Origin: Undaria pinnatifida
Lineage: Eukaryota > Sar > Phaeophyceae > Laminariales > Alariaceae
Direction of reading: 5' to 3'
NCBI GenBank assembly: GCA_012845835.1
Contig: JABAKD010000016.1
Location: 20,977,196 to 21,041,195 of the forward strand
DNA length: 64,000 nucleotides
Of the stretch, positions 18,201-54,262 are shown in pieces. Position numbers and translations under genes: made by a program. The notes under the pieces were generated by a model that saw only the letters and a list, made by a program, of their open reading frames with translations, made no database searches and was not told the origin of the DNA. Position 1 is the first letter of the stretch. Every line of letters begins with the position of its first letter.

Positions 18201-20238
18201 CAGCCCGAATTGAACAAACACGTCTGGCCTGAAGTACACATAAATATCACATTCACAAAAATGACATTGTTGGACGATTGTTGGGGTTAAGGACTCCCCG
18301 TCTCCGGAAAATATTTTGCCTAACGTGCTGTACCTCTGTCGACCGTGGCTACGGATAGGGGGGAGGGAGGGGCGTACTTATTTGTTGCTTCTCTTAGTAC
18401 TGTGACCATTGACCACGTATCTCTTTCGGGACGAAGCACCGTTCCTAATCCTAATAGAGACCCCTTCCACGTTTGGGCGCTCAATGCGCTTTTACATATG
18501 TTACCTAAACACTCGGTTAGCTTATTCTACCCCCCGTCCTCTTTCGCCGTCTGTGGCCACCATCTATCTCGTAGGATGGCGGTTGTTTTCTCGCTACGGT
18601 CTAGCCTACCAATTTCTTCCATGTCACATTCGCCTATTTTCCTCATCTCTTCTAACACGTTCCGTTCCTCCTTGTATATTTTACATTCTCCTACTATGTG
18701 AGTCCACACGGGTACATATGCGTCACCACGTCCTCCTCCTCCCGACTACTGGTATATCTCTTTCTTCGTTGCGGTAGGTCCAGGTCCCCTTCACGAAATA
18801 TGAGTTCAAGTTTTTTCGCGTAGTCTATTGGGCCGTGAAAACATTTGTAAAATACGTTTTCATTCTAACATCTTCCGTCAACCCCCCGTACATCTCTTAA
18901 GTGTTTTCCCTCTTTCGCCGTTTTTCTTAGCGAGTCTTTGCCTTTCTTGTATGTTATTTTTTACGTCTGCCTTGTACCCGCCAAACTTATCTATAAACAG
19001 TATATCTTTTTGGTATCCTGCGACCTCCTTCCCTATTTTTTCGACTGCGTTATCCCATCTTTTTCCAGCTCTCGCCCTTGAGTTTTTTTTCCCATACAGC
19101 CCTATCAGCTATGGCTGGCAGCCTCTTTACTGGCATACTCCTTACTTAGTAATGGCATTTAAACTTTCTCACGTCTGTTATTTGTTGTATGTGGGTACAC
19201 TCCTAGTTTTGCTATTAGTACTATATATTTCGGGTAGGGGGTCACTTTGGGGCCTCTTTTTTTCAGTCGGCGTGGCTCACTTGTGCGAGTAACCCCCCTG
19301 TTCCTTTGCGGTCATAAGAGTCTTCCGTGTGAATTTTCGTTACACGACACCGCAATCGAATGGTTAAGTTACGCTGCGTTAAAACAAAACGCCTAAAAAA
19401 CTGTTTTCAAACCTGCGAGGTACGAGTGTCACGCGGGCGAGTGGCCCGAAGCCCGCAGTATAAAAGAGGGCATTTTCCCTCCCGTACCGTTGGTCTACCG
19501 TAGCCGGCGTCCACGCCTAACCCCCCATACCTTTATGAACTTCAACTCTCCCGTTTCGGGCTTATCCACCGACGGGACCCCGAACTGGAAATACGCCAGC
19601 CAATCAACGATCGAGCAGCGGCGCATCGCGTTCAGCTCGGCTCTAGGCTTGGACAGATCCAGCTCATCCGTCGTCGCGGTCCGATGACAATACATGACCG
19701 TCCCGTTCCCCCCGTCCACGTGATCCTTCCCCCAGTCGGGCGTTGCCCAATCACAGCCCATCTCTTCGGCAAAAATCCATGCCGCCACGTGCCGGATGGT
19801 CGAACTGCCGGCACCATCCGAGGTTGGCTCTGAGGCAACCAGACACGGGGACCCCACCCGGCGCAACTCCGAGGCTACAGGCCTCCAAATATCCGCGTGA
19901 AGTAGTCGCCGCTGCAAGCCGGGAGGGACGGACGCCGTGAATCGCTTCCAAACGTCGATGCAGGCGTCGAGCGTCCACGACGAGCCGGGGTATCGTCCGG
20001 TAGCCGCGAAATCCGCGCACGCTGCCTCTGGCAGGATTACAGGATTAGCTTCAAGCCCCGCCGATGGGGATGGTTGGAGGAGGACAAGGTGAAGGAGGAG
20101 GAGGCCGAGGGGCAACACCAAGAGGGTTGAAGGTCGGAAGCGCCCCATCCGGTCTGCCGTTTTTGTTCCTGTAAATCGAACTATAGAGTCTGATGGGGAA
20201 CGAGAAGAAGGTTTGTATGTGGAGAGGGCGGAAAGCAT
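8829..20238 (-). CDS. secreted/Golgi fucosyltransferase-like glycosyltransferase, four exons
   Basis: Minus-strand gene joined from 20238-19531, 15803-15583, 11009-10739 and 9248-8829. Junction phases agree (0/0, 2/1, 0/0) and every intron is GT-AG. The product is about 539 residues, or 509 if the internal Met at 20,148 is used. Residues about 37-55 are a leucine-rich hydrophobic segment, which acts as a type II Golgi anchor from the first Met or a signal peptide from the second. Exon 1 has RHVAAWIFAEEMGCDW, resembling the N-terminal helix of GT-B enzymes. Exon 3 has NVAMHVRMGDR, resembling the H-x-R-x-G-D motif of GDP-fucose-using enzymes (GT11/GT23/GT65 style). Exon 4 has QADAVLMGCSTFGQVAG, resembling the C-terminal nucleotide-sugar site. 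Fucosyl transfer is inferred from these motifs; donor and acceptor are unknown. An extra small exon in the 3.7-kb first intron cannot be excluded. Confidence 0.75.
9368..9625 (-). mobile_element. MITE-3 copy in intron 3 of the glycosyltransferase
   Basis: The left end reads GAGTCGTTCTACGATAACCC. The right part contains the family's GTTCG...AAAATCGCTGGTTT block followed by a 22-bp poly-G tract. It lies 120 bp upstream (in gene sense) of exon 4, close to the branch-point zone. Confidence 0.75.
9738..9815 (-). pseudogene. decayed duplicate of the exon 4 5' end
   Basis: This block resembles 9,185-9,260, the start of exon 4 and its acceptor. Both contain a CGGGGCAGTCGGT core, a GGGCGTT(T/C)CC(A/C)CCT segment and an end resembling the acceptor TTAC. 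In exon 4's frame it gives a peptide like exon 4's start (RPTAPKCDLEKL versus TPTDCPEKKAGK). No clean exon can be drawn, so it is read as an old local duplication separated from the real exon by the MITE-3 copy. Confidence 0.5.
9948..10240 (+). mobile_element. MITE-1 copy in intron 3
   Basis: The left end reads TAGGGCACGGTAGCGGGGGG and the right end GTCCGTAGCCTCGGCC. It contains CAGTGGCTCGG followed by a decayed TCACTCGCGCCAGTGA. It lies within intron 3 in the orientation opposite to the gene. Confidence 0.7.
10380..10571 (+). mobile_element. MITE-2 partial copy, right end
   Basis: It carries the MITE-2 right half: GACGAATTTTGGGTTAGAGC, GATTCAGAAACCGTT, then CTCTAATCGTAGCACGCGTC at the end. 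The left terminus was not found. Confidence 0.6.
10739..11009 (-). CDS. glycosyltransferase exon 3 (HVRMGDR motif)
   Basis: The acceptor CTAAAG|G is at 11,010/11,009 and the donor CAG|GTCCGT at 10,739/10,738. It carries the motif NVAMHVRMGDRREYQDG and a following amphipathic segment, then FHIFSETVQPCPS, a likely beta-strand region of the Rossmann fold. This is the exon that best identifies the family. Confidence 0.78.
11225..11450. repeat. imperfect GGCACCCGACACTTCGG repeats
   Basis: About four loose copies of a 50-odd-bp unit built on GGCACCCGACACTTCGG lie in intron 2 of the glycosyltransferase, upstream of exon 3. Units differ by several bases each. Confidence 0.5.
11551..12280. mobile_element. 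0.73-kb inverted-repeat element (GGCCGGCCAAGA family)
   Basis: The ends are inverted copies containing CTTGGCCGGCCAAGA (left) and CTTGGCCGGCCCAGCTTGT (right). The body is AT-rich with no protein. Towards the right end, two segments around GACACGTGATTTAGATCAAG and TCACTTGTCAAAATTTCAGG form an inner inverted pair about a poly-T tract. A relative lies at 38,738-39,453. It is a non-autonomous DNA element or MITE, within intron 2 of the glycosyltransferase. Confidence 0.75.
12400..12606 (-). mobile_element. MITE-1 partial copy
   Basis: It contains ACACCCCTATTTTCACTTCC, GGGTTTGAGCTATC and GGTGCAGCGTAGCTTGAG-like blocks in MITE-1 order. The CTATCATAC motif that expands elsewhere (60.5 kb) is present here as a seed. 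It ends where the SINE at 12,612 begins. Confidence 0.5.
12612..12895 (+). mobile_element. tRNA-derived SINE
   Basis: The head GTCGCCCCGGTGGCGTATC resembles a tRNA 5' part. A B-box-like GAGTTCGAATCCCC lies about 50 bp on. The body then shares with 40,450-40,770 the words ACGAGCAGTGG, CTGAACCCT and GACA(C/T)CTGTGACCA, and ends near TTGTCCAGAAGCTGG. No cloverleaf with a paired acceptor stem could be drawn, so it is not a functional tRNA gene. Confidence 0.65.
13114..13351 (+). mobile_element. MITE-3 copy in intron 2
   Basis: It starts GATTCGACCATAGCCCGCCG and ends CCACCGTAGAACGACTT. Inside are CGATTTTCTTCAACGAACGT, GATGACGTCGGGGT and the GGAGCCGGCTATTTCGTTCG region typical of the family. Confidence 0.75.
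13360..13455. mobile_element. MITE-2 fragment
   Basis: TAGAGCTCCATTCACAAGTG followed by GAGCCTCAGAAAAAAATGGT resembles the inner left end of MITE-2. No terminus is intact. Confidence 0.4.
14220..14526 (-). mobile_element. MITE-1 copy in intron 2
   Basis: The left end is ACCCCAAGGCCGCGGTAAGG and the right end CTGCCGTGTAGCCTCC. It contains GGGTTTGAGCCACTCGCACG and a clear GTGACTCGCGCGAGTGAC palindrome 60-odd bp from the right end. Confidence 0.75.
14555..14635 (+). mobile_element. MITE-2 right-end fragment
   Basis: GGGGTTAGGGAGCTCCGTCA runs into CTACCTCTATCGAAGCACGC, the family's right terminus. With the next, inverted copy it forms an inverted pair around about 200 bp. Confidence 0.65.
14830..15092 (-). 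mobile_element. MITE-2 copy
   Basis: The left end contains ATGACAGAGGTAGCAG and the right end CACCTCTACCGTAGCATGCG. Inside lie GGCTCCTTAGCCCAATATCG (the reverse of the family's GGGTTAAGGAGCC block) and GGAAAACCTCAGAAAAAGTG. Confidence 0.75.
15307..15560 (+). mobile_element. MITE-3 copy just inside intron 2
   Basis: It begins near CTACGACAGCCTCCCCCCCA and ends GAAACCGTAGAAAGACTCC. It contains CATGGCTGCTCGACACG and GATTTCGTTGAGGAAAAGTT. It starts about 22 bp after the exon 2 donor in gene sense, so the donor context is almost directly flanked by transposon sequence. Confidence 0.8.
15583..15803 (-). CDS. glycosyltransferase exon 2
   Basis: The acceptor CCTCAACAG|CCG lies at 15,804/15,803 and the donor TG|GTGGGT at 15,583/15,582. 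It starts in phase 0 and ends with two bases that complete a Trp codon with the first base of exon 3. Peptide features are PQLRSTEEVEIAKRELES at the start and FTFHPSFAAEQLV midway. Copies of its acceptor region are repeated upstream (15,774-16,320). A MITE-3 copy begins about 22 bp past the donor. Confidence 0.7.
15774..16320 (-). repeat. three tandem copies of the exon 2 splice-acceptor region
   Basis: Units of about 185 bp start near 15,774, 15,960 and 16,140. In gene sense each has a pyrimidine-rich run, an AG and then the exon-like start CTGAGATCAAC. The first is the real start of exon 2. The second keeps an in-frame AG|CCT and a peptide PELRSTKGFEIA resembling exon 2's PQLRSTEEVEIA. The third is decayed. 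The flanking words GCACAACAACATGAACAGAG and CGGTGGCTTGCT recur in each unit. Confidence 0.7.
16840..17093 (-). mobile_element. MITE-2 subfamily copy in intron 1
   Basis: The right end reads TATCGTAGCACGCGTC. Inside are GATTAACGCTTTCACCACTG, GAAACCCTTATC and GGGCTCTACAGAGGTCAAG, shared with copies at 10.4, 21.3 and 24.4 kb. The left terminus is degenerate, near CCTACCGTGGGATGG. Confidence 0.6.
17589..17832 (+). mobile_element. MITE-3 copy in intron 1 (well preserved)
   Basis: It runs from GATTCTACGATAGCCCCCCC to GGTCTACCGTAAAACGACTC. The body holds TTTTCTTTAACGAACC, CATGGCTGCTCGACAAGAGG, GATGACGTCGG and GATTTCATTGAAGAAAAGTT. It is among the best preserved copies here and useful as the family reference. 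Confidence 0.85.
17850..18300. other. unassigned intron 1 sequence with open frames on both strands
   Basis: A plus frame (17,905-18,213) and a minus frame (17,932-18,138) overlap. Neither shows a known motif, and neither provides a phase-0 GT-AG exon obviously fitting the glycosyltransferase. An additional exon of that gene hiding here is possible but not supported. Confidence 0.25.
18338..19495 (+). mobile_element. MITE-1 copy split by a LINE fragment
   Basis: The left terminus GACCGTGGCTACGGATAGGG is at 18,338. The element resumes at about 19,228 with GGTAGGGGGTCACTTTGGGG, then CACTTGTGCGAGTAACCCCC, and ends at CCCGTACCGTTGGTC. Between the parts lies a minus-strand LINE 3' fragment. The related words GGATAGGGGG and CGGGTAGGGGG at the break could be its target-site duplication. 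The right end stops about 35 bp inside the exon 1 donor of the glycosyltransferase. Confidence 0.6.
18378..19215 (-). mobile_element. 5'-truncated LINE, 3' end of ORF2
   Basis: In frames on the minus strand the C-terminal part of a non-LTR retrotransposon ORF2 is visible. RWDNAVEKIGKEVAGYQ lies near 19,060, RKRYTSSREEEDVVTHM near 18,750, then HIVGECKIYKEERNVLEEM (a Cys/His tail motif) and RDRWWPQTAK. The frame closes at TAA 18,380-18,378 after NGHSTKRSNK. Several frame changes show it is dead. It is a different LINE family from the one at 50-53.7 kb. Typical 5' truncation; the 5' break lies inside a MITE-1 copy. Confidence 0.7.
19531..20238 (-). CDS. glycosyltransferase exon 1 (anchor and N-terminal domain)
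   Basis: Open from the ATG at 20,238, with a second in-frame ATG at 20,148, to the donor AAG|GTATGG at 19,530, ending in phase 0. It encodes the hydrophobic anchor (LLVLPLGLLLLHLVLLQPS) and a cysteine-containing lumenal region. The second Met sits nearer the hydrophobic run and would make a classical signal peptide; the first would leave a 35-residue cytosolic tail as in Golgi type II enzymes. The frame remains open 36 bp past the donor, so splicing here rests on the match with exon 2. A TATA-like GCTATAAC lies at about 20,262-20,269 on the minus strand. Confidence 0.75.
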
Positions 20239-20667: not shown

Positions 20668-20944
20668 CACCATGGTTACGTTAGGGGAGCAACCCATTTT
20701 TAACCGATCTGTACCGTTTGAGCCACTCGCCCGATTGAGCCTATACCTCACTGACGGAAATACTTTGGACGATTCGCTTGGCGCACCGCAGCTACCCATT
20801 CCACTGCAGATTCATATCGTAAAATCAAAGCAAGCACGAAATCTTGAAAATACCGTAACGGAACAGGGGGGGTCACTCGCGCGAGAGAGCCCTAGACACT
20901 TGCAAAAAAAAAAAACTCAAGGGAACCCCCCTACCGTTTGGCTT
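20668..20944 (-). mobile_element. MITE-1 copy
   Basis: It starts CACCATGGTTACGTTAGGGG and ends CCCCCCTACCGTTTGGCT. Contains CGTTTGAGCCACTCGCCCGA, GGCGCACCGCAGCTACCC and GGTCACTCGCGCGAGAGAGC. It immediately follows the MITE-2 fragment, 5 bp away. Confidence 0.75.
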
Positions 20945-22594: not shown

Positions 22595-22942
22595 GACCTA
22601 CGGTATGCGGGAGAGGGGTCATTTTAGATACATCGTTTTGCAGTGGCTCGGGGTCATTCGCGCGAGTGACCCCCCTGTTCCGTTGCCGGTCTTAAGCTTT
22701 GGTGCTGTATATATTACTTCGCGATGTGAACCCGCAATGGAGCCGTCAGCTACGCTGCTCCTAGAAACCCGCCTCAAGTGGTTTTGCTGGTGAGGCTCAG
22801 AGTCACTCGTCCGAGTATGATAGTATATGATAGTATGACAGTATGTGTGATATGGCATGATATGATAGGTCAAAATCGGTAGTGAGATAGGGGGGTATAT
22901 CATAACATCGTCATAACATCCCCACCCCTTACCCTAGTCTTG
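22595..22942 (+). mobile_element. MITE-1 copy with a microsatellite seed
   Basis: The left end is GACCTACGGTATGCGGGAG; the right end near CCCTTACCCTAGTCTTG is decayed. It contains CAGTGGCTCGGGGTCATTCG and CGCGAGTGACCCCCC. Near the right subterminal site TATGATAGT repeats, the same motif that forms the long array at 60.5 kb on the other strand. Confidence 0.7.
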
Positions 22943-26122: not shown

Positions 26123-26418
26123 GACGAAGGCTGCGTCAGGGGGGTCTCTGCTGGGATTGCCTTTGCAGTGGCCGGGTCACTCGCGCGAGAGGCCCCCGTT
26201 CCATTTTGCGGTCTTAGGCATTCTTGTTGCTGTCATCTTAAGCATTCTTGTTGTCATTATGCGGCAGGAATCCGGCACGGAGTGGCAAGCTACGCCGTGA
26301 CAATGAAAACATCTAAAAAACTATGTTCGTCGGTAAGGTACAGAGCACCCGTTCCAATGGTGATACCCCCGGAAGTGAATAACGGGGGTATCCCTCCCTA
26401 CCGTACGTAGCCTTGGCT
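26123..26418 (+). mobile_element. MITE-1 copy
   Basis: It starts GACGAAGGCTGCGTCAGGGG and ends CTACCGTACGTAGCCTTGGC. Contains GCAGTGGCCGGGTCACTCGC and a duplicated GCATTCTTGTTG block in the middle. Confidence 0.75.
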
Positions 26419-28839: not shown

Positions 28840-29127
28840 GACCAAAACCGCTACGGCAGGGGGGTCACGGGTAGGCAAGTGTCTTTGATTTTGATGTTGA
28901 CCGGGGACACTCGTGCGAGCAACCCCTTCTTCCTATGTGGTCTTGGCTTTCGTACTGTTTTATTTTTGCGATATGAGTCCGCAATGGAATGGTTACGCGG
29001 CTACGCTGAGTCAAAAAAATCGTCAATCAATAATTTTCATCAGTGAGAGGTATGGAGTCACTCGTGAGAGTATCTCAAATACAGAAGTGATGCGGGGCCC
29101 CCCCCCCCCCCCCCCATATCCTTGATC
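28840..29127 (+). mobile_element. MITE-1 copy
   Basis: It starts GACCAAAACCGCTACGGCAG and ends in a C tract followed by ATATCCTTGATC. Contains GGGACACTCGTGCGAGCAAC and GTCACTCGTGAGAGTATC, decayed forms of both subterminal palindromes. Confidence 0.7.
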
Positions 29128-29429
29128 GCATCGCAACAATACTGCGGGATACAGCTGTGAATCACTATTTCAGACCCCTGCCGGAGTGGTGCTCCTTAAC
29201 CATTGTCGTCCAAAACCTTGACTCAGAAGCTGCGCTTTATCGTCGCAGCAGTACCATTTGTGCTACCGTAGAACGATTTGAGTAGGGGGGAAGAGGAGGG
29301 TGATAATGCCTGTCGACCATGATGATAGGACAACCACTTCACCCAACGAATTCTGAGAGACGGGCGCTTGTCAACTCAGGAACTCCGCTATGTCGTTAGT
29401 CGTTGCAATGCCATTTGTGTTATACAATT

Positions 29430-29708
29430 TGTTGACGATAAGGTGCGACTTTAAAAGGCCGGTAATTACCTGATGCAAAGGGGTAATTAGACGTTTTCGT
29501 AGATTAGGATGGCGTTATATATTCGGGGTATCCACGAGACGGAGAGATTCGTGTCTCCCGTCTCAGTGGTGGTCATGTTCGGTTCTAGTGGAAATAAGTT
29601 AAGCCGCTTCTCTCCCGCTTTGAGCTACGAAAGTGAGTAACACCGGGGACATGCCGACTTGGTCGACCTGTAGGGATACTCTTGTGTCTCACCCCTAGCA
29701 ACTTCACA
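29430..29708 (+). repeat. 5' LTR of element A
   Basis: Begins TGTTGACGATAAGG and ends AGCAACTTCACA. It shares CTCTCCCGCTTTGAGCTACG, GAGACTCGTGTCTCCCGTC-like and GGGATACTCT words with 37,352-37,615, and more weakly with 56,605-56,888. Confidence 0.75.
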
Positions 29709-29709
29709 A

Positions 29710-31640
29710 ATGGCGTCGACGGCAGGACTAGGATCAGTGGCATTCTCCCTCCTATGAGAGTTGCGTCGGCTGCGCCGGGAGCAAGCGCGCCCCCCTCGTC
29801 TTCGACGCGCACACATGGTGTCCCATCCCAGCGACCACGACCCGGGGACGACGCCTTTTTCAAGAGCAGCATTGAGTGCATGGCGTCTGATCCGAGGGTG
29901 GAGTTCTCCTCGGAGTTGGCGACCGCGGTGGTGAAAACACCGTCCGTCCTCCTCTCGTCAGAGTAGCAGGCATTGCTGCACGCGGACGCCCCTTTAAGGG
30001 AGGCAGCATGGGCTCGCATGGATTGTACCTCCTATGCCGGACAGACGAGAGCCACCCAGACCCTTGCCCTCGTCAAGGCCTTGAGAATGGCTCACGACGA
30101 GGCCGACGAACCCGTTTTATGGTCGACTCCGGAGGAGTTGGAAGAATGCCGCCGTGACAAAAAGCGACGCGGCGACAGTCGCTATTGCGAAGACCGCCAC
30201 CGTGGCGGTGGTGGATCCAGGTGTGGCAGCAAAAATGGAGGGGGTGGCGACCACCACCACCGTCGCATGGGTGGCAGTGGTGGTTGAGGCGGAGGACGCG
30301 CGTCGGGTGCTGGTGGTGGCTCAGGACGCCGCCAAGGGCAGAAACCAGGGTCGCACCAACGAGGCGGTGGCTCCAGCTCCGGGGGAGGCACCGGATGGCG
30401 GCGGAACAGCGCAAGCTGCCGTTCAGCGTGGAACGGCTCGTCCACCTCCCGCTCGTCTTCGGCCTTGAACACGAACCACGGCGAGGTGGCCGTGGAAGCA
30501 GGCAAGAGGTGTCAAGAGCTATGGCAGGAGGAGCATCTGCGCGTGATGCGTTCACCCTCCTGCTACGCCTGCTCGTGACGCACTTCGACCGGGTCCACAC
30601 GGGGGAGGGTTACACTAGGTTTCATTTTTTTGGAATGTGTAACGGCATGCCTTTTTCCGATTTCAGTTAGGAGTTTCGCGTACTTATGTCGACCACTACG
30701 GGGAGTGAGCGTGCTTTCTCTCCGGGGACGGACGGGGTGTTGGCGGGGTGGCGGTGAATGAGCAATTTCCGACGCTTATGGCTACGTTGCAACCTGGTTC
30801 GAAGGCAACGGACCCGCGGCCATACTCCTCGTTGGGTGCTACGTGGCGGGTTTTTAGTGACTTGGCGCACAATAAGACACCCGCGGTCAACGGCGAATTA
30901 TTGTTTTTCTGCCTGTTTCTTCGACGGGAGCGAGCTCACCCACCTCGTCGGGGCCCCGGCGCACCGATCGTGGACACGGCCAGGGTAGAGTGCCGTCCCA
31001 GTCGCTTTCGTGGCAGACGGGATCGTGCCACAATCTAACTCATGCCCATCGATTATTTACTTCACCCTTGCCTTGACCAGACATCGAGCTGCTGGACACT
31101 ACAAGAGCCTCATTATGCTGGAAGATTCGCCGTTAGCGCCTCGTTTAAGACAGACGACCCTCTCCTTTGGAGCGGCCTCCTTTCACTCTTCACTCGCGCT
31201 GCTGCCCTCCGAGAAATCCGGGGGCTCTGCCTCAACTGTCACGAAAACAACCATTTCTTCAAGCATTGTAGGCATCCTTTCATTAATGCGAGCGGTTGCT
31301 TGAACCCTGAACTTGGCCGGCTTGGCGACGATGATGCATACTAACGTCGGCAAGCACGCATTATCTGCTACCGCCGAGCCGGCAAATCTTCTCGTCCGAA
31401 CAACCACACGAAAAGTATTCGCCATCATTCACGTCAATCGCGAGTGTGCGACCAGAATCAGGGCCAGGTCAAATGTCACAACGGTATCATATACACGTCC
31501 GATCCCTATAGTGGTATCCCACCCTCGCCCGCCTCTTCTGCCCCCGCTCCCGCTCCTGGAATGCGCTCTGGAGCCGCCCATAACCGGGGTGAAATCCGAA
31601 CGCGCCAGCGTGGCACATTCCGTACCGGAAATTGACAGCT
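29710..31640 (+). pseudogene. gag region of element A with CCHC zinc knuckle (fossil)
   Basis: Fragments of a gag-like protein are spread over several frames. The clearest mark is CLNCHENNHFFKHC at about 31,231-31,272, spaced C-x2-C-x4-H-x4-C. Gly/Arg- and His-rich stretches (30,180-30,300) and a Pro/Ala-rich end (31,520-31,570) flank it. It resembles the gag of LTR elements I associate with brown algae. Broken, with many breaks. Confidence 0.7.
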
Positions 31641-31809
31641 CGACGGGGGTGCGGCACACCTGGCCTGTCCGTCGATGGCACTGTCGGGGAGAGCTCTTGT
31701 GGTTTCAGAAGATACCCGTGCACCTGTCGCAATACTGTCCAATAACAGCACAAATTGCCTCTGTCAAAAGCCCACGGGCTCCTACACCGTGTGTTGACTA
31801 TTCTCACAG

Positions 31810-32060
31810 CGTAGTATCAGCGGCGGGAACTAGAGCGTTGAGCGTGGTTCCCCTCAACCAAGTAATTGTTTCGACGGCGAAAACGCGCGCTTTAAGCGCT
31901 GCTCCCTTCGGTCATGGTCTGAGTTCGGCGACGGGAAACCGCGCTTCCAGCGCCGTTCCCCTCGGCAGGCGGCATAAACTCGGCAATGAGGGTGCGCGCT
32001 CAAACCGGCGCCCCCCTCAACCATGGCACGTGAGCATGCGCTTTGCGCGCTCCCCCTAGC
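31810..32060 (+). repeat. in-frame 54-bp repeats in element A
   Basis: Three clear and one decayed copy of an 18-residue unit of the type TRALSAVPLG...S. The units lie in one frame and differ by several residues. Confidence 0.65.
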
Positions 32061-32539
32061 CACCCGTCGCGCAGCCATGAGGCTGCGGTGACGGCGCGTC
32101 GCCTGTTTCGGCGAACGTGTTCATCCCCCCCTCTCCCTGACCATGTGGTGGCGGTCGTTTGAGATGTGGGAAGGCCAACACTTGAAACAGCGAGATAGGT
32201 TTCGAGGCTCAATCTGGTGTTTGTCCGTGATAGCAGCGGGACCTTTGTCTGTTTTTCCACCCAGGAAGAGTCCACAAGATTAGCCGCCTCGTCTCCCTTC
32301 TTCAAGAAGCCTAACAAGAAAAGAGCCTCCTCGGGTAAAAAAGTTATTGCCACCTGCCCGAGCCCTGCTTCGTCTTCTAGCACGCTAACCAACGTGCTTC
32401 AGGCTTCGTCTGCCCCGGTGGTACAGGAAACCAATCCGACACTGCGCGACGGGCCAGTGGTGGCGTCACGGCCTCCAGCCTGATCAGCCGGAAGCTATTC
32501 CCGTAAATTTACGGAAGAATCGCGCCTCTCGTCAAACAG

Positions 32540-33165
32540 AAACAGCTCTGAGCCCCCGAACCTTCAGACGGATTTAGAGCAGTTTCTTGCGCATTTACAC
32601 CAAAGAGCAAAGAGGCCACGACGTGAGAAACCGCTGGTTCGGATGCGCGTCGTGCTCCCGAGACCTGGTGTTTCTAGACGGGGGCACACTACAGGCCGAA
32701 AGTGCCGAGAACTGGTGTTCCCAGAGGGGGACATTGCAGACCACCATGCCTAACGAGGCTACCGACGGACTGGCACCGTCGGTGTTGGACTATTTCTTCG
32801 GGTGCAGTACGCATGGCTTCTTACGAGTTTCCGCGGGCGAAAGAGGAGGAACCACGGGTTCATACTCGCATTGTGTTCCCGAGGCCTTGTGTTGCCGTAA
32901 GGGAACAATGCAAGCCCAAGGAGGCGTGGACTGGTGTTCCCCGAAGGGGACATTGCACACTTAAAGTTCCAACGAGGTTTTACCTACGGATTGACACCGT
33001 CGGAATTTTAGGCATTTTCGGGCGCAGTTGGAGCGGATTCTTGCGTTTTCCCGCCGACGCGCGAAGAGGACCCGAGGAGACAAACCGCGGCTTCGGATTC
33101 GCGTCGTGCTCCCGCGGCCTGGTGTTCCCGGACGGAGACATTGCAGGCCCCAATTTCAACACGGC
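32540..33165 (+). repeat. three imperfect 215-bp repeats in element A
   Basis: Copies start near 32,560, 32,760 and 32,985. Each contains a CACCGTCGG(A/T)(A/G)TT-type start, AGAGGA/AGAGGC, CGCGTCGTGCTCCCG(A/C)G or a close variant, CCTGGTGTT and GGGACATTGCA. They lie just before the NADAR-like domain. Confidence 0.6.
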
Positions 33166-33169
33166 TTTT

Positions 33170-34020
33170 GATCCTTATCTCAAATACCCCACGGAAAAAG
33201 TGGCGGTGTTCTGGCAGCCCCCATCCTATTTGTCATCTTGGTCCCCATCGACGTTTGCCGTCGACGACGTGTCGTATCTCGCGTGGAGCAGTATATGATG
33301 GCCGAAAAGACCAGTCGTTTTCAAGACCATCGAGAAGTAGAGCTTATCACGCCGTCGACTAACCCAAGCACACACACGCATCGGTTGACGCGTGCGCAAC
33401 TTTGACTTCTCTGTTAGGGACAGGGAGAAGCAAAACGCCGTGTTATCTGGCCCCCACAAACTGATCTGTAGGGGGGGGGGGCTTCTGATTGTTTCGGCGC
33501 GAAGACCAATGGTACGGTAGGGGGGGTCCCTTTTGGGCATTTGCTTTTCAGTGGCTCGGTGTCACTCGCGCGAGTGACCCCCCTGTTTCTTGCGGTCACA
33601 TGATTTTGCGCTGTTTTAACATTCTCGATAAATATACGATAAGGGGTGGTTACAGCTACGGTGCACCAAAGAAATCGCCGAACGTGTTTTTTTGAGTGAA
33701 GTACAGAGTCATTCGCGCGATTATGACCGTATGTATGGGTGTGTTAGCTCAGACCCAGTAGTGAAACTTGGGGGTACCCCGCTACCATAGCCTTGATCAT
33801 AAACTAAATCCGCGCAAAATGCAGCAATGAAAAATCACCGTTTTAGCTCTGGAAACAAGCTTCTGGCTTAAGCCAGCCCTCTGGACCCAGTGTGGGGCAT
33901 TGGTCTCCGGGCGGATAATCCCAGGTCCAACAAGACATGCCAGTGGAGAGGAGAACCTCTGCTCGGTGAGGCAATTTCTGCCGTTCACGAAGCAATTCGC
34001 CACAGTGAGACCGGGTGGGC
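33170..34020 (+). pseudogene. NADAR (YbiA/DUF1768-like) domain carried in element A (fossil)
   Basis: Plus-strand fragments match the NADAR fold signature in order: VAVFWQPPSYLSSWSPSTF near 33,200, EQYMMAEK near 33,286, then, after a MITE-1 insertion, SGNKLLA and VWGIGLRADNPRSN near 33,890, and CQWRGEPLLGEAISAV near 33,935. In known proteins this family binds ADP-ribose-type nucleotides, and some members remove ADP-ribose from nucleobases. It lies between gag and RNase H of the LTR fossil in the same direction. It is broken, partly by the inserted MITE (33,504-33,798). Whether it was expressed as element cargo or captured from the host is unknown. Confidence 0.75.
33504..33798 (+). mobile_element. 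MITE-1 copy inserted in the NADAR-like region
   Basis: It starts GACCAATGGTACGGTAGGGG and ends CTACCATAGCCTTGATC. Both subterminal sites are visible; the left one reads GTCACTCGCGCGAGTGAC. NADAR-like coding similarity stops before it and resumes after it, so it arrived after the domain was in place. Confidence 0.85.
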
Positions 34021-34309
34021 GCACCCGACTCCCCTAGTCGATTCCGCACTTAAAACTGCGACTGCAGGAATCAAGAAGTGTCGTCCGCGCCGCGGCCGGG
34101 CCGATAACAGCAGCCAGCCCCCGCAGATGTTCTCCTTCGGATATGTCGGCCTATTTCTCGGACGCGCTGGTCTATTAAAAGCCGTGAATGTTTTTGGACA
34201 TAGCTCTGGCGTCGGCCCTGACCTTGCTCTATCAGAACATGGTCCCTGCTTCGTCGGGGGTACTGTGACGCTGGACGACGTTTTGTTCACTATCACAATC
34301 GCGTATATC

Positions 34310-34620
34310 AGTCAAGCAACGCTTGACTCGGAGAGGCGCTGGACTCCTCTAGATATGGAGACCGGCCGTATTGTTGCGCTCCCAAATACCTCCGAGGGTA
34401 CTTTGTTAGGGAACAAAGTTCCGCATATCCTCCGGATACAAGACACGGGAAAGCATTGGCAAAGGGGGGACCCACAACGTACGAGTCCCGCGGCAGCTTT
34501 TAGAGTGCTTCACCGCGTTCGATTGCACACTCGAATACCGTAAAGGCAGCGCCAACGGCCACGCCGATTTTCTGCCCCCCTCACCAGAGCCTGCTACAGA
34601 GCACGACCGCAGTAGGGCGA
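34310..34620 (+). pseudogene. RNase H C-terminal part of element A (fossil)
   Basis: Fragments such as ISQATLDSERRWTPLDMETG and LEYRKGSANGHADF match the end of a Ty3/gypsy RNase H domain (kin of the usual YRKGxxNxxADxLSR motif). The same region is present at 54,400-54,700 in element B. Broken. Confidence 0.7.
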
Positions 34621-34694
34621 CAAGCTTCAACCCCGTGGGAGATAGCGGTATCAACCTCCTACGGATCTGCGGGCTGCGTACTCCCTCCTCGCCG

Positions 34695-34820
34695 ATCTCA
34701 GGGGTCGGTTTGGGTGGGTTCTTGCCATGCACCGGAAGCACTGCCTTAGGTGGGCTGGCGCCCCGCACCCTTCACCAGAAGCACTGCCTTGGATGGGCTC
34801 GTGCCCCCCACTGAGCATGG
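34695..34820 (+). repeat. 39-bp-type GGTGGGCTCGTGCCCCGCAC repeats in element A
   Basis: About three copies; the equivalent place in element B (54,825-55,035) has about five. The repeats encode a GLGGLVPRTE-like unit, so copy number has changed between the two elements. Confidence 0.65.
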
Positions 34821-35439
34821 TTTCTTGGGTGGACTCCTCCTCGCCTCCCGATTTTCACGATTTTTGCCCACATAAGCCACGTATGAAGATTGGCGGCATT
34901 TCTACCCCCCCGGGGAGATTCGTCGCTCGTGTTTGTGCCTCCATCGTCACTGCCGAAGGCTGTACCAGCCGCTGTTCGAATTCGCCTGCCGCTGATACCG
35001 TTGTCTCTTCGGTTTTTTCCATGCACATCGAGGGCGGCACGGGCCCCGCAGAAGCCCTGGCTGCAGCGACGACCATCGCACATCCGACTCCTCTATTGAG
35101 GAGCTCTACACAGGAAACCGACTCTACCGCAACCACCGGTTCGATCAAGTCCGTCTCTGCCTTGCTTGGCACTCCAGCCCTTCCGTCGGCGACGACGCGC
35201 CGACGAACAGCGACAGCAATCGGTAATGCACCCCCGCTGCATATTATGGATTCTGGCCCAGCGGGGCCCCTCGACCATCTGGCCGGAGTGTCTACACCGC
35301 CGCGAGTCCCACGGGCTCGGCCGATCCCGTCGACCGCCGCGACTCCTCCCCTCCGGTCCCCACGGTACCGACCCCGTCTGAGCGTGACCGCTCGCAACCT
35401 ATTGGCACTCCAATATGACGATCTCCGTCCACTCCTGGT

Positions 35440-36240
35440 GACACGCCAACTGCACCCACAAAGTTAGACGCCCTTGACGCTGATGAACTGCAGTTCGCTG
35501 ATTCCGTTGCGCGATTTTCGCATGCCGACTGTGAGCGAGAACACCAGATTGCACCGATGCGCCATGCCGAGGTGCGCTACGCCACCATCGTCCGGCCGCC
35601 GGCACAGTCACCCGAGTTCTTGTCGGGTTACCCTTTGCACAAGCGTTCCTTTCGGACACGCCGGAGCCGACAAATAAAGACCACCTACGTACAATCGAAT
35701 ACCACTCGTCCGTGACCTGCGGTGGCTTCACCTCGGTGATATACAAGACGCATTTGCTGAGACTCTCTCAACAATTCCGGGGTCGGGAAATGGACCCCCA
35801 ACACTCTTGAACCCCCATCTTACGTTCTTCGGCTGTCACCCGGACCAACACCGCTAAACCAACCGCTTTCCCGCCGAATGCGCATCGGTGCGGTACAGCG
35901 TGAGCTTTCACCGGGCAAAGGCGAAATATTTGGGGGCCCAGTTACGCTCGCGTCACGCGCATAGAGTGGATTCGCCACCTCCGCGACACAGTACTCCATC
36001 AGAGAAACCACGTTTGGTATAAAACCGTCGATGGGATGTGGTGGCTTGAGACAATCAGTGCGAGTATGACTGAAGGCGGGCTATGTCTGGTCCGATTTTA
36101 GGTCGACCGGAGGCTGATTGAACTCCTTCACCCTCCGGCGCGCTACACTGCTTCGACGGATACCGCACGAGGCTCTTGGTATCTTCAGGTTTACGTCGGC
36201 AACGCCTTCCCGCGGGGGATTCAACGTAATATAAATGACC
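35440..36240 (+). pseudogene. C-terminal pol-like segment of element A (fossil)
   Basis: Fragments such as LDADELQFADSVARFSHAD (about 35,480-35,540) and, further on, pieces resembling the post-integrase tail of gypsy-like pol in algal elements. Only part is shared with element B. Broken. Confidence 0.5.
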
Positions 36241-36609
36241 CTCAAGGCGCGGCCGTGGGTAGTCAACTTTCAAGCCGTTGCCGCTCCTCGAAAGCTTTTT
36301 TTCCGGGTTAAGAGGTTTCTAGTTCTCGACGTTTGTTTCTTTGTGGGATTTCGACCTTTTTGTTTGGATGTGGGGTGGTTCTTCCCATTTTATTTTCGCC
36401 TTCCGGACAACCCTGTTCAGTGTCGGGCACGGTCTGGGCGATAAGGTCGCTATTTGAAGCACAGGCCCATCGGTTTTTCGTGTTGGTTCAAATTTGCCCT
36501 GCCGACCACTTCCTCAGACCAGAGCCGGGCGGCGACCGGGGTATCCTGTTTACGCATAACGTGGTACGGGGCTGTGTTAGATCGTGTGTTACTTTTTTGT
36601 GCTGGATGT

Positions 36610-36878
36610 GACCCAGGCTACGGTAGGGGGGTCCCCTTTTGGGCCTTTTATTTCAGTGGCTAGGCGTCACTCGCGCGAGTAACCCCTTTGTTCCTATGCA
36701 ATCTTACGTTTTCTTTATGTTTCACATTGACGAAATCAATCCCCAATGCAAAGGTGATCTAAGCTGCGCGAAACCAAGTATCTAGACCATCTTCGTCCGT
36801 GGGGTACAGAGCTACTCGTGCGAGTGGCTCAAACACACCAGTGAAAATGGGGGTACCCCCCCTACCGTAGCCTTGGTC
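36610..36878 (+). mobile_element. MITE-1 copy (269 bp) in the 3' region of element A
   Basis: It runs from GACCCAGGCTACGGTAGGGG to CCCTACCGTAGCCTTGGTC. It is very close to the inverted copy at 44,329-44,597, which is also 269 bp, so both are recent. Element B lacks it at the matching site. Confidence 0.9.
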
Positions 36879-37351
36879 ATTGTGTTCTACATCTTTCGGC
36901 AAAACACTTCTCCCCCTCGCGGGTTTGTCGATCGTGCCACCTTTCGTTTACGGTATTCGTTGTTTCCTTATCTCCCTCCCCGCCGTGCCGGTGGGGCTGT
37001 GGCTTTTTTGTTGCTTGACCTCTGCCTCGTATAAGCGCCTGTGCTCCCCTTCATTTAGACGAGGGTTGTATCTTTTCCTGTGGTTTGTTTGCCGTGGGCT
37101 TTTCCTGTCTCGCCCCCTCCCGCCACACCGGCCGTACGCGGCTTGGGTTCGATTGGTTGTTTGCCTTGTTGTAGGGTCTGCGTTTCTTTCAAATGCTTTA
37201 CTCCGCGTGTTCCTTGCTTTATAGCCAGGCCGTTTAGAGGTGTCGCAGTGTTTTAAGGAGCCACATCTTCGTCTCATCGTATGGTTCGTAGAACCGGAGC
37301 TTATCCGAATTTCGCATAATTCTGCTGATGCGACTCATCAGGGTGGGCTAT

Positions 37352-37615
37352 TGTTAAGGTACGGCATTGAACGACCGGTAATTACCTGATTTAAATAGGT
37401 AATTGGTCTTTTTCGTGCGATATGACGGCGTTTTATATTCGAGGTAGTCAGGGGACGGAGAGACTCGTGTCTCCCGTCAGGACTCGTCATCTTCGGTTCT
37501 AATAATCGAAGCTGCTTCTCTCCCGCTTTGAGCTACGTAAGTGAGTAACTCCGGGGACATGCCCACATGGTTGACCTGAAGGGATACTCTTTGTTTCACC
37601 CTTAGCAACTTGACA
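37352..37615 (+). repeat. 3' LTR of element A
   Basis: Begins TGTTAAGGTACGGCATTGAA and ends GCAACTTGACA. Preceded by CATCAGGGTGGGCTA, also present before the element B LTR. Confidence 0.75.
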
Positions 37616-37756
37616 TGATATTCATAGGATACCTGATACAGATTCATAGGCAATGATGGGATTGCTCGTCGCGCTAGACTTTCATTTTGTTTCGCTCAGA
37701 GGATGCTGCTAGGAGGGTGTTAACGCCTGTCAGCTATGATGAGGGGACACCTGTTG

Positions 37757-37915
37757 ACCCGTGTGTGTTTGCGTGTGAGTTCCACACATTAAAACGGATA
37801 TTGCCACCCGTATAGATCAAACCAGTGTCCGTGCCGATGCCTCCCCCTGCGTAGATAGAGAGAATATCTCTGCAGACAGAATCTACAAGACACAGAGATG
37901 CACATTGCGAAGGCA
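37757..37915 (+). repeat. F5 repeat copy
   Basis: It contains GTTCCACACATTAAAACGGA, AACCAGTGTCCGTGCCGATG, TAGATAGAGAGAATATCTCT and ACACAGAGATGCACATTG, matching F5 copies at 39.6, 42.2, 45.7 and 48.5 kb. Confidence 0.6.
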
Positions 37916-38216
37916 GCAGTAACATGTGGTTTAGTCATATGGCATGCAATACCAAACAAAGGAGGCAGTGTAGCAAAGATAAACGTCATCACACCAGATA
38001 GCTCGGAAGGAAGAACGAAAAAAAACTGAGCAAGAAAACGAAAAGAGAAATAAATAGGGAGAATGATAAACAGTAGTAACGCCGGGGGCGGCGGGGTGGG
38101 GGAAGGGTGGGGGAAGGGGGGTACGACAGAGGAAACCCATGAGAAAGTGCCCTATCACACATACAAAATACATAGATGTACATAAATACGTACGTATTGC
38201 CATTCACTTACGTCAT

Positions 38217-38690
38217 GGTTTCTATCGCTGCACGGACGTTACGAGCGCGGCCCCTACTCCAGACGGCAAGTGTTGGAGTATCCGCGTGAAAAGATGCTCA
38301 TTTCGTGCGAGCTCAGTCGAAGCTCGGACAACATGGCAGGACACGACGATGAGCTCGTGATGTTCACCACGCGATCCATGAACATCTCTGTCTGCGGACT
38401 GAGTTTCACGATGTTACTCAACCATTGAAATGTTACTTCATCATTTCAACACGTCACAAATAAATGATGGAGTAACATCGTGAACCTCAGCCCTCGAACG
38501 GAGATGCTCATGGATCGTCTGGTGAGCATCACGAGCTCTTTGTCGTGTCCTCTCTCCTTTGTCCGAGCTTCCACTGAGCTCGCGCAAAGTGAGTATGTTT
38601 TCACGCGGATGCTCCGACGCTTACCGTCTGGAGTAGGGGCCGCGATCGTAACATCAGTGCGGCGATTGGAACCAAGCAAATAACAATATA
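38217..38690. repeat. foldback with arms of about 220 bp
   Basis: 38,217-38,434 is the imperfect reverse complement of 38,467-38,690, with a loop of about 32 bp. Arm words include GAGTAACATCGTGAA, CATGGATCG, GAGCATCACGAGCTC and GGAGTAGGGGCCGCG. By eye about 85 percent of positions pair in the inner part. The minus strand of the right arm has a 77-codon open frame (CTC-rich start, KELVMLTRRSM). Related words recur at 61,835-62,320. A transcript would fold into a long hairpin. Confidence 0.8.
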
Positions 38691-43179: not shown

Positions 43180-44328
43180 GTAGGGTATTACCCGGGGTAA
43201 ACAGCCCGGGTATAGTTTGTGCGTACCCTAAAGAGCACGATCTTGAAACATTGTTGTTGTTGCTTTTGTCACATTAACTTGCAAAACGTTGAGTGAAACA
43301 AGCAGGCAAAACTGGTGTTAGATTTCATATTTCATGAAAGGGTTCGCCCGTGCGCCCTACGTACGCTGTACGGTCTAACCACAATGAGTGTTCCAGCTGT
43401 CGAACCCCCAAAATGGTACGAAGAGTAGGCAAATTTGTATTTTGCTGATATATCTGATAATTTTCGTCTTGGTCAAAACCCAAAGTTTGAGAAACAAAAT
43501 GTCTACCCGTGCGTACCGACCCGTACCGCATTTTCGTAAAAAAAACGAAAAAAAAAAAAACGGATCAGTACCACAGCTGTCATTCGTGTCTGGAACCAAA
43601 ACGAACATGAGTAACCACAGCAGGAACTACGTAAGCACTCTGCAAGGCCGATCGCGGGCAACTGAAGGCACTTAGCGACAAATTAGGTCCCACGCGTTAG
43701 CGTAGCAAGCTTTTCAGCTCTGTATGCCCGGTCGGTTGAACTCGGTTACGTACTGGTACCATCGAACATTTGTACAGGACTGCCGCTGCTACCAACAGCC
43801 TACGAGACACGTGAATACTGGTGTAAAGTGTGCGCAACGATAAAAAAATCGTGCACATCAGGTGTTACATTAGCACCGTATAACACGAAAAAAGGCACAC
43901 CCCGTGGACAACAGTAGTTAAAGGTTAAAAATTATTATTATCGGGTGTGCTGTTGTAGGGATGTGTGGTATCTAACGCATGCCCGGCGAAAGCAACCACG
44001 CACGGTAGCCCCGCAGCCGGGGGGTGTGGTAAGGAGGGGGTGTGGTACTTATTGGGTGTGCTGTCGTTAATAACGGGGTATCGGTAGCGCCAGCACCAGT
44101 AATGGTAAGCGGGCGGATCCCGGAGAAAAACGATGTGATCGTCGCTCGAGGCGCGGAAGCAGCAGCAGGTACCGGGGTGTGTGTGATCTAAAGGGCGTGT
44201 GCTTTCTTCCGTGTTGTTGTTGTTGTCTCACATCAAATCTTCTTGTCAAACATGTAGCGTCCGTGATACCACGAAGGTGCTGGAGCCTTAAGAAGATCCG
44301 AAAAACCAAATGAAACATATATTGTAAA
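43180..44328. other. no gene seen
   Basis: Open frames at 43,388-43,675 and 44,067-44,318 have no family motif. The stretch contains an A-rich tract near 43,540 and GGTGTGGTA repeats near 44,020-44,060. Confidence 0.4.
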
Positions 44329-44597
44329 GACCAAGGCTACGGTAGGGGGGGTACCCCCATTTTCACTGGTGTGTTTGAGCCACTCGCACGAGTAGCTCTG
44401 TACCCTACGGATGAAGATGGTTTAGGAACTTGGTTTGCCGCAGCTTAGATCACCTTTGCATTGCGGATTGATTTCGTCAATGTGAAATATAAAGAAAACG
44501 TAAGATTGCATAGGAACAAAGGGGTTACTCGCGCGAGTGACCCCTAGCCACTGAAATAAAAGGCCCAAAAGGGGACCCCCCTACCGTAGCCTGGGTC
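44329..44597 (-). mobile_element. MITE-1 copy, best preserved (269 bp)
   Basis: It runs from GACCAAGGCTACGGTAGGGG to CCCCTACCGTAGCCTGGGTC. Subterminal sites CACTCGCACGAGTAGC and TTACTCGCGCGAGTGACC lie at similar distances from the two ends. It is flanked by TAAA on both sides, a possible 4-bp target duplication. Use it as the reference copy of the family. Confidence 0.9.
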
Positions 44598-49850: not shown

Positions 49851-50788
49851 TACTTGTAAGGCCGGTGGAAATAAGAGGGCAAACTTCGAGCAAACAAACA
49901 GAAAGGAAGAGAAAAAGGAAGGACGACAGCAAGTCGTGACCGTCGCTTTCGCACTCCCCCCATTGAACTGAACGAAAACAAAGCAGAAACTGCCGCTCGC
50001 TGTAGAGGGTTCAGGACTATAGTCTAGTAGCGCACGCTCCACGTATTATTTTAGTTGAACTGGTACCTTGCCACACGCGGTCTACCATTTCATTTCTGTA
50101 TTAATCTACAGCTAGCTGTAGTCTATCAGTATGGCTGCTCCCCCCCCCGAATCCCCCTGGTTTCCCTTGGTTGCTGCTCTTGGCGTCCTCTGCTATGAGG
50201 CGTTGCCACATTTTCTCCACATCACCCCTGTGCCACCTCGTCATGAATCGGTCCGCCGCGTCGAACGATTCATCGATGCCAGTTCCCACTCTTCTTGGCC
50301 GCCCTGGGCCATAGCACAGTCTCTTCTCTGGACAGTAAAGGGGGTTTATCCATGGACCTCTCGGTTGCTTCGAATACCCTGATGTCGTCTCCCCTACACT
50401 GGGCCCAGTTACTTTCTGGTCATCCTCGTCCCGGGTCGACCCCGCCAGGCATCGTCCTGAGCATCACGCGATGGGCCAGTCGCTCACTTCCCGTCCGTGG
50501 TACGGACCCCGCAAATAGGGGGCGTCGTTTGCGGATAGTCGTCTCAACGCTCTCGCATTGTGCCTTCTTGAGAGCTTTGGCATACGATATGCTGTGGTCG
50601 GTGCCTTGTCGGCGCCGAGGGCCCATGATCCATAGGAGGGGGTTGTGCTATGCCGTTCGGAGTTTAGCGAAGTGTCCCAGGCCGAGAGCCCATATCGCAC
50701 CCCCGTACAGCAGGGTATCCATCACCTCAGTCTTTAGCAGGCGCACCTTCGAGATGAACTGGGCATCCTCCATATCGTACTGCTCGCG

Positions 50789-51130
50789 CTAGAAACGATC
50801 GTAGCATGCCCACGCGAGTCGGATCCGTCGTTTGATCTCCGACATGATGTCGGTGTTTGCGTCGATAAGACAGATCGCGCAGGTGCAGAAACTGCATCGT
50901 GTGCATAATCTATACCTCTGGCCCGCTGCTTCGGCAACGAGCAGTGAGGTCGGGAGCACCTGGTTGAGTGTGCGCAGCAGCATTGTGTCCGCTTTCGTTT
51001 CGGACACGGTGAGTCCTGCTGCTTCAAAAACGGCCCCAATGACGGTCATCATTTTCGCAAGACCTTCCGCCTTCCTAGACATGATACCTGCATCGTCGGC
51101 GTACAGCATGCCCCAAACTGACCTCTGCAC
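50789..51130 (-). pseudogene. LINE reverse transcriptase fragment, YADD and thumb
   Basis: Begins with MLYADDAGIMSRKAEGLAKM, the catalytic YADD box, continues with FEAAGLTVSETKADTMLL, and ends KRRIRLAWACYDRF. It directly follows the previous fragment in gene order. Confidence 0.8.
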
Positions 51131-51215
51131 ACATGGTAGACTAGTGGATCAACTTCCACTCTGTTCACCCCAAGGTCCTCCTCGAGGTGAACCAGGTCCT
51201 TCAAATATTGGGTCC

Positions 51216-51554
51216 TCACTGAAGCGTACCAGGACGGCATGTATCGCAGCGTCGATAAATACATTGACAAGTACGAGGCAACAATACACATCCTTGCCGC
51301 AGTTCCTGTGTGGCGTCAAACCATCCAGATTGCTCACCGTCATCCGCACGCATGCGAGCTCGCATGCCTTCGTGAAACTGGTGGACATTGGTCGGCATCA
51401 ACTCTGGTAAGCCAAGGCGTGCGAGCACCACCCGGAGCAGCTCTCGGTCGACGGGGTCATGTGCTATCTGGAGATCGATGGAGCACATGTACAGAGGGAT
51501 TCTCCTAGCTCGTCCGAGTTCTTGCAGTTGGCGCGCGACGAACAGCATGTCCAC
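51216..51554 (-). pseudogene. LINE reverse transcriptase fragment, fingers and palm
   Basis: Encodes MDMLFVARQLQELGRAR, IPLYMCSIDLQIAHDPVDRE (the first catalytic Asp is in this motif) and the RQGC block near its end. The usual FIDLQKAYDSVDRE shows substitutions at the K and Y/S positions. Confidence 0.8.
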
Positions 51555-52975
51555 TGTTGATCGCGCAGGACAAACGCTGCCCTACTGTTTTTCGGGGAAT
51601 ATCCCTTGGGTCTCATAGTAGTTGATGAGGCGGGACGCGACCATTTCTTATAATACTTTGCATTAATGGGCAACGAGCGAAATCCCTCGGTAATTGTTGC
51701 AATCACATCAATCTTTCTGGTTGTGAAAGACCTTAATGGCAGCATTTTTCCACTGCTGGGGGGATGTCTCCCGTCCTCCTTACATTGACAAGTAGGTTGT
51801 GGAAAAAGCGGACAAATTCGGGGTGGTCCATTTGCAGCACCTCGGACGGTAGAGAGTCTGGTCCCACTGCTTTCCAGTTTGGCATACCCCGTATTTCGGC
51901 AGTCATTTCATCGATATAGTCAGTTCATCTCCAAGCGATGGCGCTAAAGGCTGTTGTGGGAACAGGTGGCTGATTGCGCCTAGTTTGGTATTAAGGAGGG
52001 TACCGAAATCCCCCGCCTATCATTCAAGAATGAGCACCTTGTCCTTTAGCAGCGTATCATCCTCGTCTACGATGAACTGTATTCGCTTCTCACCTTTCTA
52101 CCGCCCAACCCAACCGTGCTCTTCAGGTGCTTGTAGAAACCCTGTTGGTCGTTGTCAGCGAGAAGTCTTTCCATTTCAGGAACGTACTCTTCTAAATAGG
52201 CCTGTATTCCTGCGTCGATCACCCCTCGCAGGTTCGCGCATGCCGTCCTCAGCGTCTTTCACGCAGGTTTGTACCTCTTAATGCGTATGGATCGTCGTGC
52301 ATCCTCCGTCGCATCCCATGCTACTTTGAAGGCGGCTGAGGTTTCTGCGGACTCGTACCAACGGCGTTTGTGTGAGAACGACTCTGGCAAGGGATTCGGC
52401 CTTCTCGGAGATACTATTGGGCTGGGAGAGAAGGGAAGGAAACTTGGAGAGGATCTGCTCAACTACTCGCTGCCTGCAATCTCCGTCGGGTCTAAACTTC
52501 TGCCGATCGAAAACCCGTATTTGGTTTTTCGTTCGCACGTGCGTCGTGTCTGTTGGGCGCGAAACGGCCGCTGATAAGAACCATCGCGCATACAATGTTT
52601 TCATCTGAGTCCGCCTTGGCTGGGGGTGGAGGCTGGGGGTGCACCTTTACATCATACACGGGAGATCGGTGTGCTTGTCGGGTTACGATGTAGTCAATGT
52701 GTGTTTGGTCGTTGCGGGTGCTAATGCCATTGAACGTACGAGATACTCCACGATTCCGTGTGTTACAAAGCGTGTTCGTGAGAGCAAGCTTTGTGTCTTA
52801 GCAAATATCAGCAGGTGTCGCCGTTGTTGTTGAGCTCATCACGTCCGTGCGCTCCAAACACCTTGCCGTCATCACGTACTTCCATCTTTTTTCTAGTCCA
52901 CGCCTTTGCGTCTGTCACTACGAACAGACATTCCTCAGTTGGAATATGCTCAACCGTGTGCCCCAATTTCCTCCA

Positions 52976-54184: not shown

Positions 54185-54262
54185 CTCTTCTGGACAAACC
54201 GTGGATACAGGTGACACCCCTTCTCTCCCCTGCTACGTGCCTTCATTTTCACCACAATAAAT
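54185..54262 (-). mobile_element. SINE tail fragment beside element B
   Basis: In minus sense ATGAAGGCACGTAGC, GTGTCACCTGTATCCACGG and TTTGTCCAGAAGAGG match the SINE tails at 12.88 and 40.75 kb. It ends exactly where element B sequence begins. Confidence 0.6.

Follow-up and report, generated by a model that had tools for sequence, protein, structure and literature searches.

The window, that is, the whole 64-kb stretch of DNA analysed here, very probably holds a decayed and internally deleted Ty3/Gypsy retrotransposon of a lineage in which a NADAR domain of the YbiA type forms the N-terminal part of Pol. As this domain combination has been published, the kind of element is already known, and what the window contributes is one more, decayed, member of it. 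The best explanation as a whole, which joins this identity to a deletion shared among copies, an inferred function and the capture of the domain, is held with moderate confidence.

Layout and state of the element

Paired LTRs in direct orientation, a Ty3/Gypsy trait, enclose a gag zinc knuckle, a spacer, a NADAR domain and an RNase H remnant, all on the + strand. The sequence-only reading had described such a domain lying in the same direction between a zinc-knuckle gag and an RNase H end within an LTR element, and the LTR pair, the order and the direction are all recovered, with the knuckle at 31228–31269, NADAR at 33188–34000 and RNase H from 34298. This copy lacks protease, reverse transcriptase and the first part of RNase H. 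Outer LTR ends and target-site duplications were looked for at the element and not found. The features are as follows.

29439–29708, + strand: 5′ LTR, alignable part, 83% identical (217/261) to 37355–37615 in the same direction
31228–31269, + strand: gag zinc knuckle (CX2CX4HX4C), read from the ORF at 31039–31344
31971–32519, + strand: Ser/Pro-rich spacer from gag knuckle to NADAR (tblastn with P0073 residues 14–207, 44% identity)
32563–33149, + strand: diverged tandem repeats directly upstream of NADAR (direct repeat family D2 and blastn self matches)
33188–33454, + strand: N-terminal NADAR part with frame changes and stops (custom profile 43.6 bits, positions 2–91; in a second frame 19.9 bits at 33283–33381, positions 34–66; Pfam E 2.5e-4 for the EQYMMAEK piece, profile 40–71)
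about 33504–33799, no strand assigned: nested inverted-repeat element (MITE-like), ~300 bp, within the NADAR coding region (inverted-repeat ends, 27 columns, 74%)
33797–34000, + strand: C-terminal NADAR part with VWGIGL and WRG..LLGEA (custom profile 62.9 bits, positions 91–158; Pfam E 4.1e-6, profile 122–163)
34001–34297, + strand: linker 3′ of NADAR, aligned with P0006, P0034, P0046 and P0050; a DTGS/P protease motif comes next in relatives
34298–34736, + strand: deletion junction, then broken C-terminal RNase H and further Pol (tblastn with P0154 residues 478–517 and 515–624)
35949–36272, + strand: C-terminal Pol remnant (tblastn with the C-terminus of P0156, an Ectocarpus NADAR-Pol protein, residues 653–760, 37% identity)
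36610–36881, no strand assigned: second nested inverted-repeat element (blastn, 96% identical to 44326–44597)
37355–37615, + strand: 3′ LTR, alignable part, aligned to the 5′ LTR at 29439–29708
54262–56882, + strand: second, 5′-truncated element of the same kind with linker, junction, RNase H remnant and 3′ end (blastn, 72–79% to 34158–37452)

The NADAR domain, first recognized from its ordered motifs, is confirmed by profiles. Pfam PF08719 matches it in two pieces, neither of which singly reaches the 35.1-bit gathering cut-off. A custom profile of 158 positions, built from 28 relatives with the window sequence left out and run on the six-frame translation of the window, spans positions 2–158 of 158 at 33188–34000 (+) with its pieces together; the runner-up in the 64-kb window scores −5.3 bits and the top score in 50 dinucleotide-shuffled windows is 1.8 bits, against which a chance motif match is rejected. 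The outline of the domain is complete but split by frame changes, stops and the nested inverted-repeat element, so that the window copy is unable to make the enzyme. The position of catalytic residue E125 is unreadable here, as the frame is broken at that point, and TIGR02464, the NCBIfam model for riboflavin biosynthesis intermediates N-glycosidase, gives the window NADAR piece alone 21.3 bits, below its cut-off of 73.7 bits.

Other scans of the window returned little. The ORF holding the gag knuckle has zero Pfam matches at E up to 10, eight other window ORFs have none, and tRNA and Rfam scans of the 64 kb give 0 matches. The name chromodomain region for 35949–36272 is borrowed from the layout described in excerpts of PMC12477816, and a chromodomain profile gave no match there.

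The element within the NADAR coding region aligns with a window copy at 36610–36904 at 64%. By blastn, likeness to it or to its relative at 36610–36881 is also met at 9956–10033, 19233–19314, 20669–20937, 22637–22826, 26139–26213, 44326–44597 and 61543–61796, and from these many sites the small inverted-repeat family appears to be frequent in the window. Just right of the Gypsy element, foldback-type nested inverted repeats occupy 38216–38674, with arms at 38216–38331/38559–38674 (86%) and 38338–38436/38453–38551 (82%). Further along, at 50100–53330 (−), broken ORFs look by eye as if they once encoded a non-LTR retrotransposon's endonuclease and reverse transcriptase (for example YADDAG, ORF 50789–51148).

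Relatives and the origin of the domain

A literature search found only one paper, PMC12477816 (Genome Biology 2025), that pairs a NADAR domain with Gypsy. In its excerpted text, an Ectocarpus Gypsy lineage (Gypsy-12_Ec32 and relatives) is described with NADAR at the Pol N-terminus and a C-terminal chromodomain, and many of the described Ectocarpus copies are young; the same excerpts propose an RNA-processing role and a possible horizontal, bacterial acquisition of NADAR, and state that Ectocarpus was excluded from the search made there. The relatives collected here come from the best 120 of 543 matches, of which not all were used, and motif counts refer to 173 proteins. Relatives are taken to run in the order gag, spacer, NADAR, protease, reverse transcriptase, RNase H, integrase and a C-terminal reader domain. 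NADAR stands ahead of RVT_1 in all six Ectocarpus proteins scanned (P0075, P0154, P0156, P0158, P0159 and P0160). Ectocarpus relatives follow the expected Pol order up to RNase H, and rve is matched weakly in P0154 (E 0.014). The protease motif DTGS/P occurs in 7/173 database proteins, in five of the seven following a linker of the pattern family that the window shows. Pfam protease matches are below cut-off (E 0.11–0.33), and a structure model of P0155, of low confidence in that part, does not show the protease fold.

By precomputed Pfam annotation, NADAR and reverse transcriptase occur together in 8 of 22 database proteins listed. All are from Ectocarpus sp. CCAP 1310/34, on eight contigs that every one differ in length, which gives the several independent copies that had been looked for as support for true cargo and is contrary to a NADAR gene confined to host loci. 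Going by these matches, the window itself probably comes from a brown alga. The sequence-only reading had, however, regarded the domain as unexpected cargo between gag and RNase H, and this does not hold, as NADAR is a regular Pol domain of a published Gypsy lineage and its closeness to RNase H is the result of deletion.

A host NADAR gene or pseudogene could also lie here by chance, with an LTR element that landed around it or next to it; in favour are the decay of the domain and the existence of standalone NADAR genes in brown algae (P0040, P0062, P0066 and P0067). Such a coincidence is very improbable, however. The window spacer upstream of NADAR is common to P0073 and P0044 by tblastn, database proteins that continue into NADAR, P0073 running from the Ser/Pro-rich spacer into the domain, and spacer and linker on the two flanks are conserved in the Gypsy-type proteins P0073, P0044, P0046 and P0071, by which a host gene beside the element is largely refuted. 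Moreover, the same order is found in Ectocarpus Pol proteins, and the zinc-finger pattern of three standalone genes, present in 4/173 proteins, occurs in none of the Gypsy-labelled rows.

The origin of the domain was approached with a 58-row tree that includes 22 Gypsy-labelled rows, the group names being assigned in the present analysis. Eight of these rows bear direct marks, namely protease motif, reverse transcriptase or junction (P0050, P0059, P0155; P0075, P0154, P0156, P0159; P0071), and the others owe their name to a similar spacer or linker or to general resemblance, least securely in P0069 and P0093. P0054, chosen as a 23rd row, has an incomplete domain and was left out. The 22 rows form one group (support 87/53), which joins five standalone NADAR genes (96/81) from Pylaiella, Ectocarpus (two) and Scytosiphon, by name or close grouping, and one from EukProt. 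Next to them come YbiA proteins of Myxococcota, together with two further rows of eukaryotic origin. In a 94-row quick tree, support for Gypsy with standalone genes and for Gypsy alone is 84 and 70, respectively. Approximately-unbiased tests do not reject either a grouping of Gypsy with Myxococcota without the algal genes (p 0.101) or one of algal genes with Myxococcota and the two eukaryotic rows without Gypsy (p 0.438).

The zinc-finger pattern ahead of NADAR belongs to three standalone algal genes and the eukaryote-like P0080; in full form it is absent from all Gypsy-labelled rows and from the standalone P0067 and P0039. From its presence in standalone genes and in no Gypsy-labelled row, the host gene may be the older form. 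By sequence comparison, the tree favours host-gene capture over direct bacterial transfer, with topology tests rejecting neither alternative tried, and the chances are about even that NADAR was captured once, from a host NADAR gene. The earlier suggestion of a captured host gene is therefore upheld in part: the nearest non-Gypsy relatives are indeed standalone brown-algal genes, but the alternative topologies stay within what the tests allow. As a separate observation, in two Nannocystis loci, L003 and L004, a shorter classical YbiA-like frame lies directly upstream of a NADAR gene from the group that stands closest to the algal and Gypsy NADARs.

The deletion junction and copies probably moved in trans

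NADAR adjoins RNase H in the window only through loss of what lies between them in relatives: protease, reverse transcriptase and the first part of RNase H have been deleted, and the linker passes directly into the later part of RNase H. The second element has its junction at 54295–54520, where 188 of 215 bases are identical, and its 3′ end also aligns; neither window copy retains reverse transcriptase. A NADAR part was not found in the second element, at which the custom profile offers nothing above the −5.3 bits of the window runner-up. Among the 173 database proteins, 13 reach the linker by the pattern used and two, P0001 and P0071, both from other assemblies, have the same junction. Its occurrence in the second window element and in these two proteins suggests a non-autonomous subfamily. 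Since the deletion is common to at least one other copy, the event most likely took place in a parent copy that was later mobilised in trans, and the simplest reading is that the offspring of this parent depended on enzymes from others in order to move.

DNA duplication of one copy, instead of transposition in trans, would also leave two elements with one deletion, and both do lie within 64 kb in the same direction. It is nevertheless unlikely, as blastn of 29000–38000 shows the right flank (37616–38000) to be without similarity near 56.9 kb, the two copies differ by 13–28%, and the junction is also present in P0001 and P0071. Six of the 173 database proteins (P0049, P0056, P0057, P0061, P0063 and P0071) read into the same alternative frame after the NADAR WRG motif, suggesting that copies multiplied with NADAR already broken.

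Catalytic residues, possible role and known systems

Catalytic positions were taken from mutation and structure data in the excerpted PMC11543638, with an offset of 2 for 8bau numbering inferred from the motif. Gypsy-labelled rows keep E43 and K50 in 22/22, R79, E125 and D130 in 21/22, W133 and K75 in 19/22 and W89 in 17/22; for comparison, the most common residue of a column has a mean frequency of 0.686 across 156 columns. These counts overstate conservation, since rows were gathered through exact matches of 5-residue words, some of them from the motif regions themselves. Two other residues that contact ADP-ribose, D86 and R93, are variable. In the five standalone rows, E43, K50, E125, D130 and W133 are each 5/5. 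The residue at E125 is E rather than D or H, a trait of the YbiA subfamily, in 21 of the 22 Gypsy-labelled rows. A structure model of P0046, a Gypsy NADAR relative, is matched by Foldseek to 8bau, a NADAR with bound ADP-ribose (E 1.9e-12), and to YbiA 2b3w (E 2.8e-7), with no further match below 0.001. PADLOC assigns PDC-M42C, an unnamed candidate, to all four proteins tried, three of them strongly.

In intact relatives, NADAR would be made within Pol, close to the protease, would travel with the replication complex, and would hydrolyse ADP-ribose from guanine bases of element RNA or cDNA, thereby reversing what ADP-ribosyltransferases of the host, or those induced by stress, had done to them. 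The sequence-only reading had likewise proposed that the domain could have countered host ADP-ribosylation or NAD-based signals. The mammalian PARP-family protein ZAP reportedly restricts retrotransposition. Such protection of element RNA or cDNA is proposed tentatively, at somewhat below even chances, by analogy, from the kept residues, the 8bau-like model, the known activity of NADARs and the proposals made for viral NADARs. In the excerpted accounts available, NADARs hydrolyse guanine ADP-ribosylation on DNA (PMC11543638) and on RNA (PMC11833690), and those in polyproteins of positive-strand RNA viruses have been proposed to counter host ADP-ribosylation or to aid RNA processing (PMC9503650).

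Two other roles are to be weighed. The domain may be a metabolic N-glycosidase of the riboflavin-intermediate type, or general stress housekeeping, that aids host tolerance of the element or of stress with no ADP-ribosylation conflict: TIGR02464 scores 130.2 bits for P0046 and 146.8 for P0155, over 73.7, and the Ectocarpus host NADAR gene Esi0017_0056 is stress-induced according to excerpts of PMC7922944. This is unlikely, as the TIGR02464 name covers many YbiA-like proteins, the NADARs assayed in print act on guanine ADP-ribose (PMC11543638, in excerpt; PMC11125620), and fusion to Pol would then bring no obvious benefit. Still less probable is a NADAR that is now a non-catalytic nucleic-acid-binding or structural part of Pol. 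Contacts do vary among the Gypsy rows (W89 in 5/22 and W133 in 3/22, R93 and D86 often), though several of the rows concerned are visibly decayed copies, and E43 and K50 persist in 22/22 and E125 in 21/22, subject to the collection bias.

If the enzyme protects element nucleic acid, as tentatively proposed, this would suggest that brown algae use ADP-ribosylation against retroelements. A joint reading can be drawn, in which a brown-algal Gypsy lineage captured the enzyme domain of a host zinc-finger NADAR gene once, lost the zinc finger, and kept the catalytic residues owing to a host that attacks by ADP-ribosylating guanines in the RNA or cDNA of retroelements, after which offspring lacking protease and reverse transcriptase spread at the expense of intact elements. 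All of this together is rather doubtful; if true, it would imply that brown algae defend themselves against retroelements by ADP-ribosylation.

To the account in PMC12477816, the present analysis adds that the nearest non-Gypsy relatives are standalone brown-algal genes, in contrast to the bacterial transfer suggested in its excerpts, that ADP-ribose-hydrolysis residues are mostly kept across diverged Gypsy NADARs, and that a deletion subfamily seemingly moved without its own protease and reverse transcriptase. As far as the excerpted description goes, the window element resembles the Gypsy-12_Ec32 lineage in being Ty3/Gypsy, in having a YbiA-type NADAR between gag and the Pol enzymes and in a C-terminal Pol region that matches Ectocarpus NADAR-Pol proteins, and differs in being decayed, without protease, reverse transcriptase and part of RNase H. 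With the YbiA subfamily (E. coli YbiA, 2b3w; Phytophthora nicotianae NADAR, 8bau), the relatives share E43, K50 and E125 and P0046 shares the predicted fold, whereas the Gypsy NADAR is fused into a retrotransposon polyprotein and the window copy cannot make an enzyme. The remaining comparisons with replicating elements are by description, from excerpts. RNA-virus polyproteins (PMC9503650) likewise hold NADAR within a replication polyprotein, but Gypsy is a reverse-transcribing element with no known extracellular phase; the Tx1 LINE ORF1 of Crassostrea gigas (PMC12477816) is another retrotransposon with an acquired NADAR, but Tx1 is a non-LTR element and its NADAR is described as divergent. The DarT-NADAR and YarT-YbiA toxin-antitoxin pairs (PMC11543638, in excerpt; PMC11125620) use the same enzyme family, though a partner ADP-ribosyltransferase has not been noticed in the Gypsy element, and the Myxococcota YbiA proteins that neighbour the Gypsy and algal group in the tree are a further likeness to this toxin-antitoxin NADAR family.
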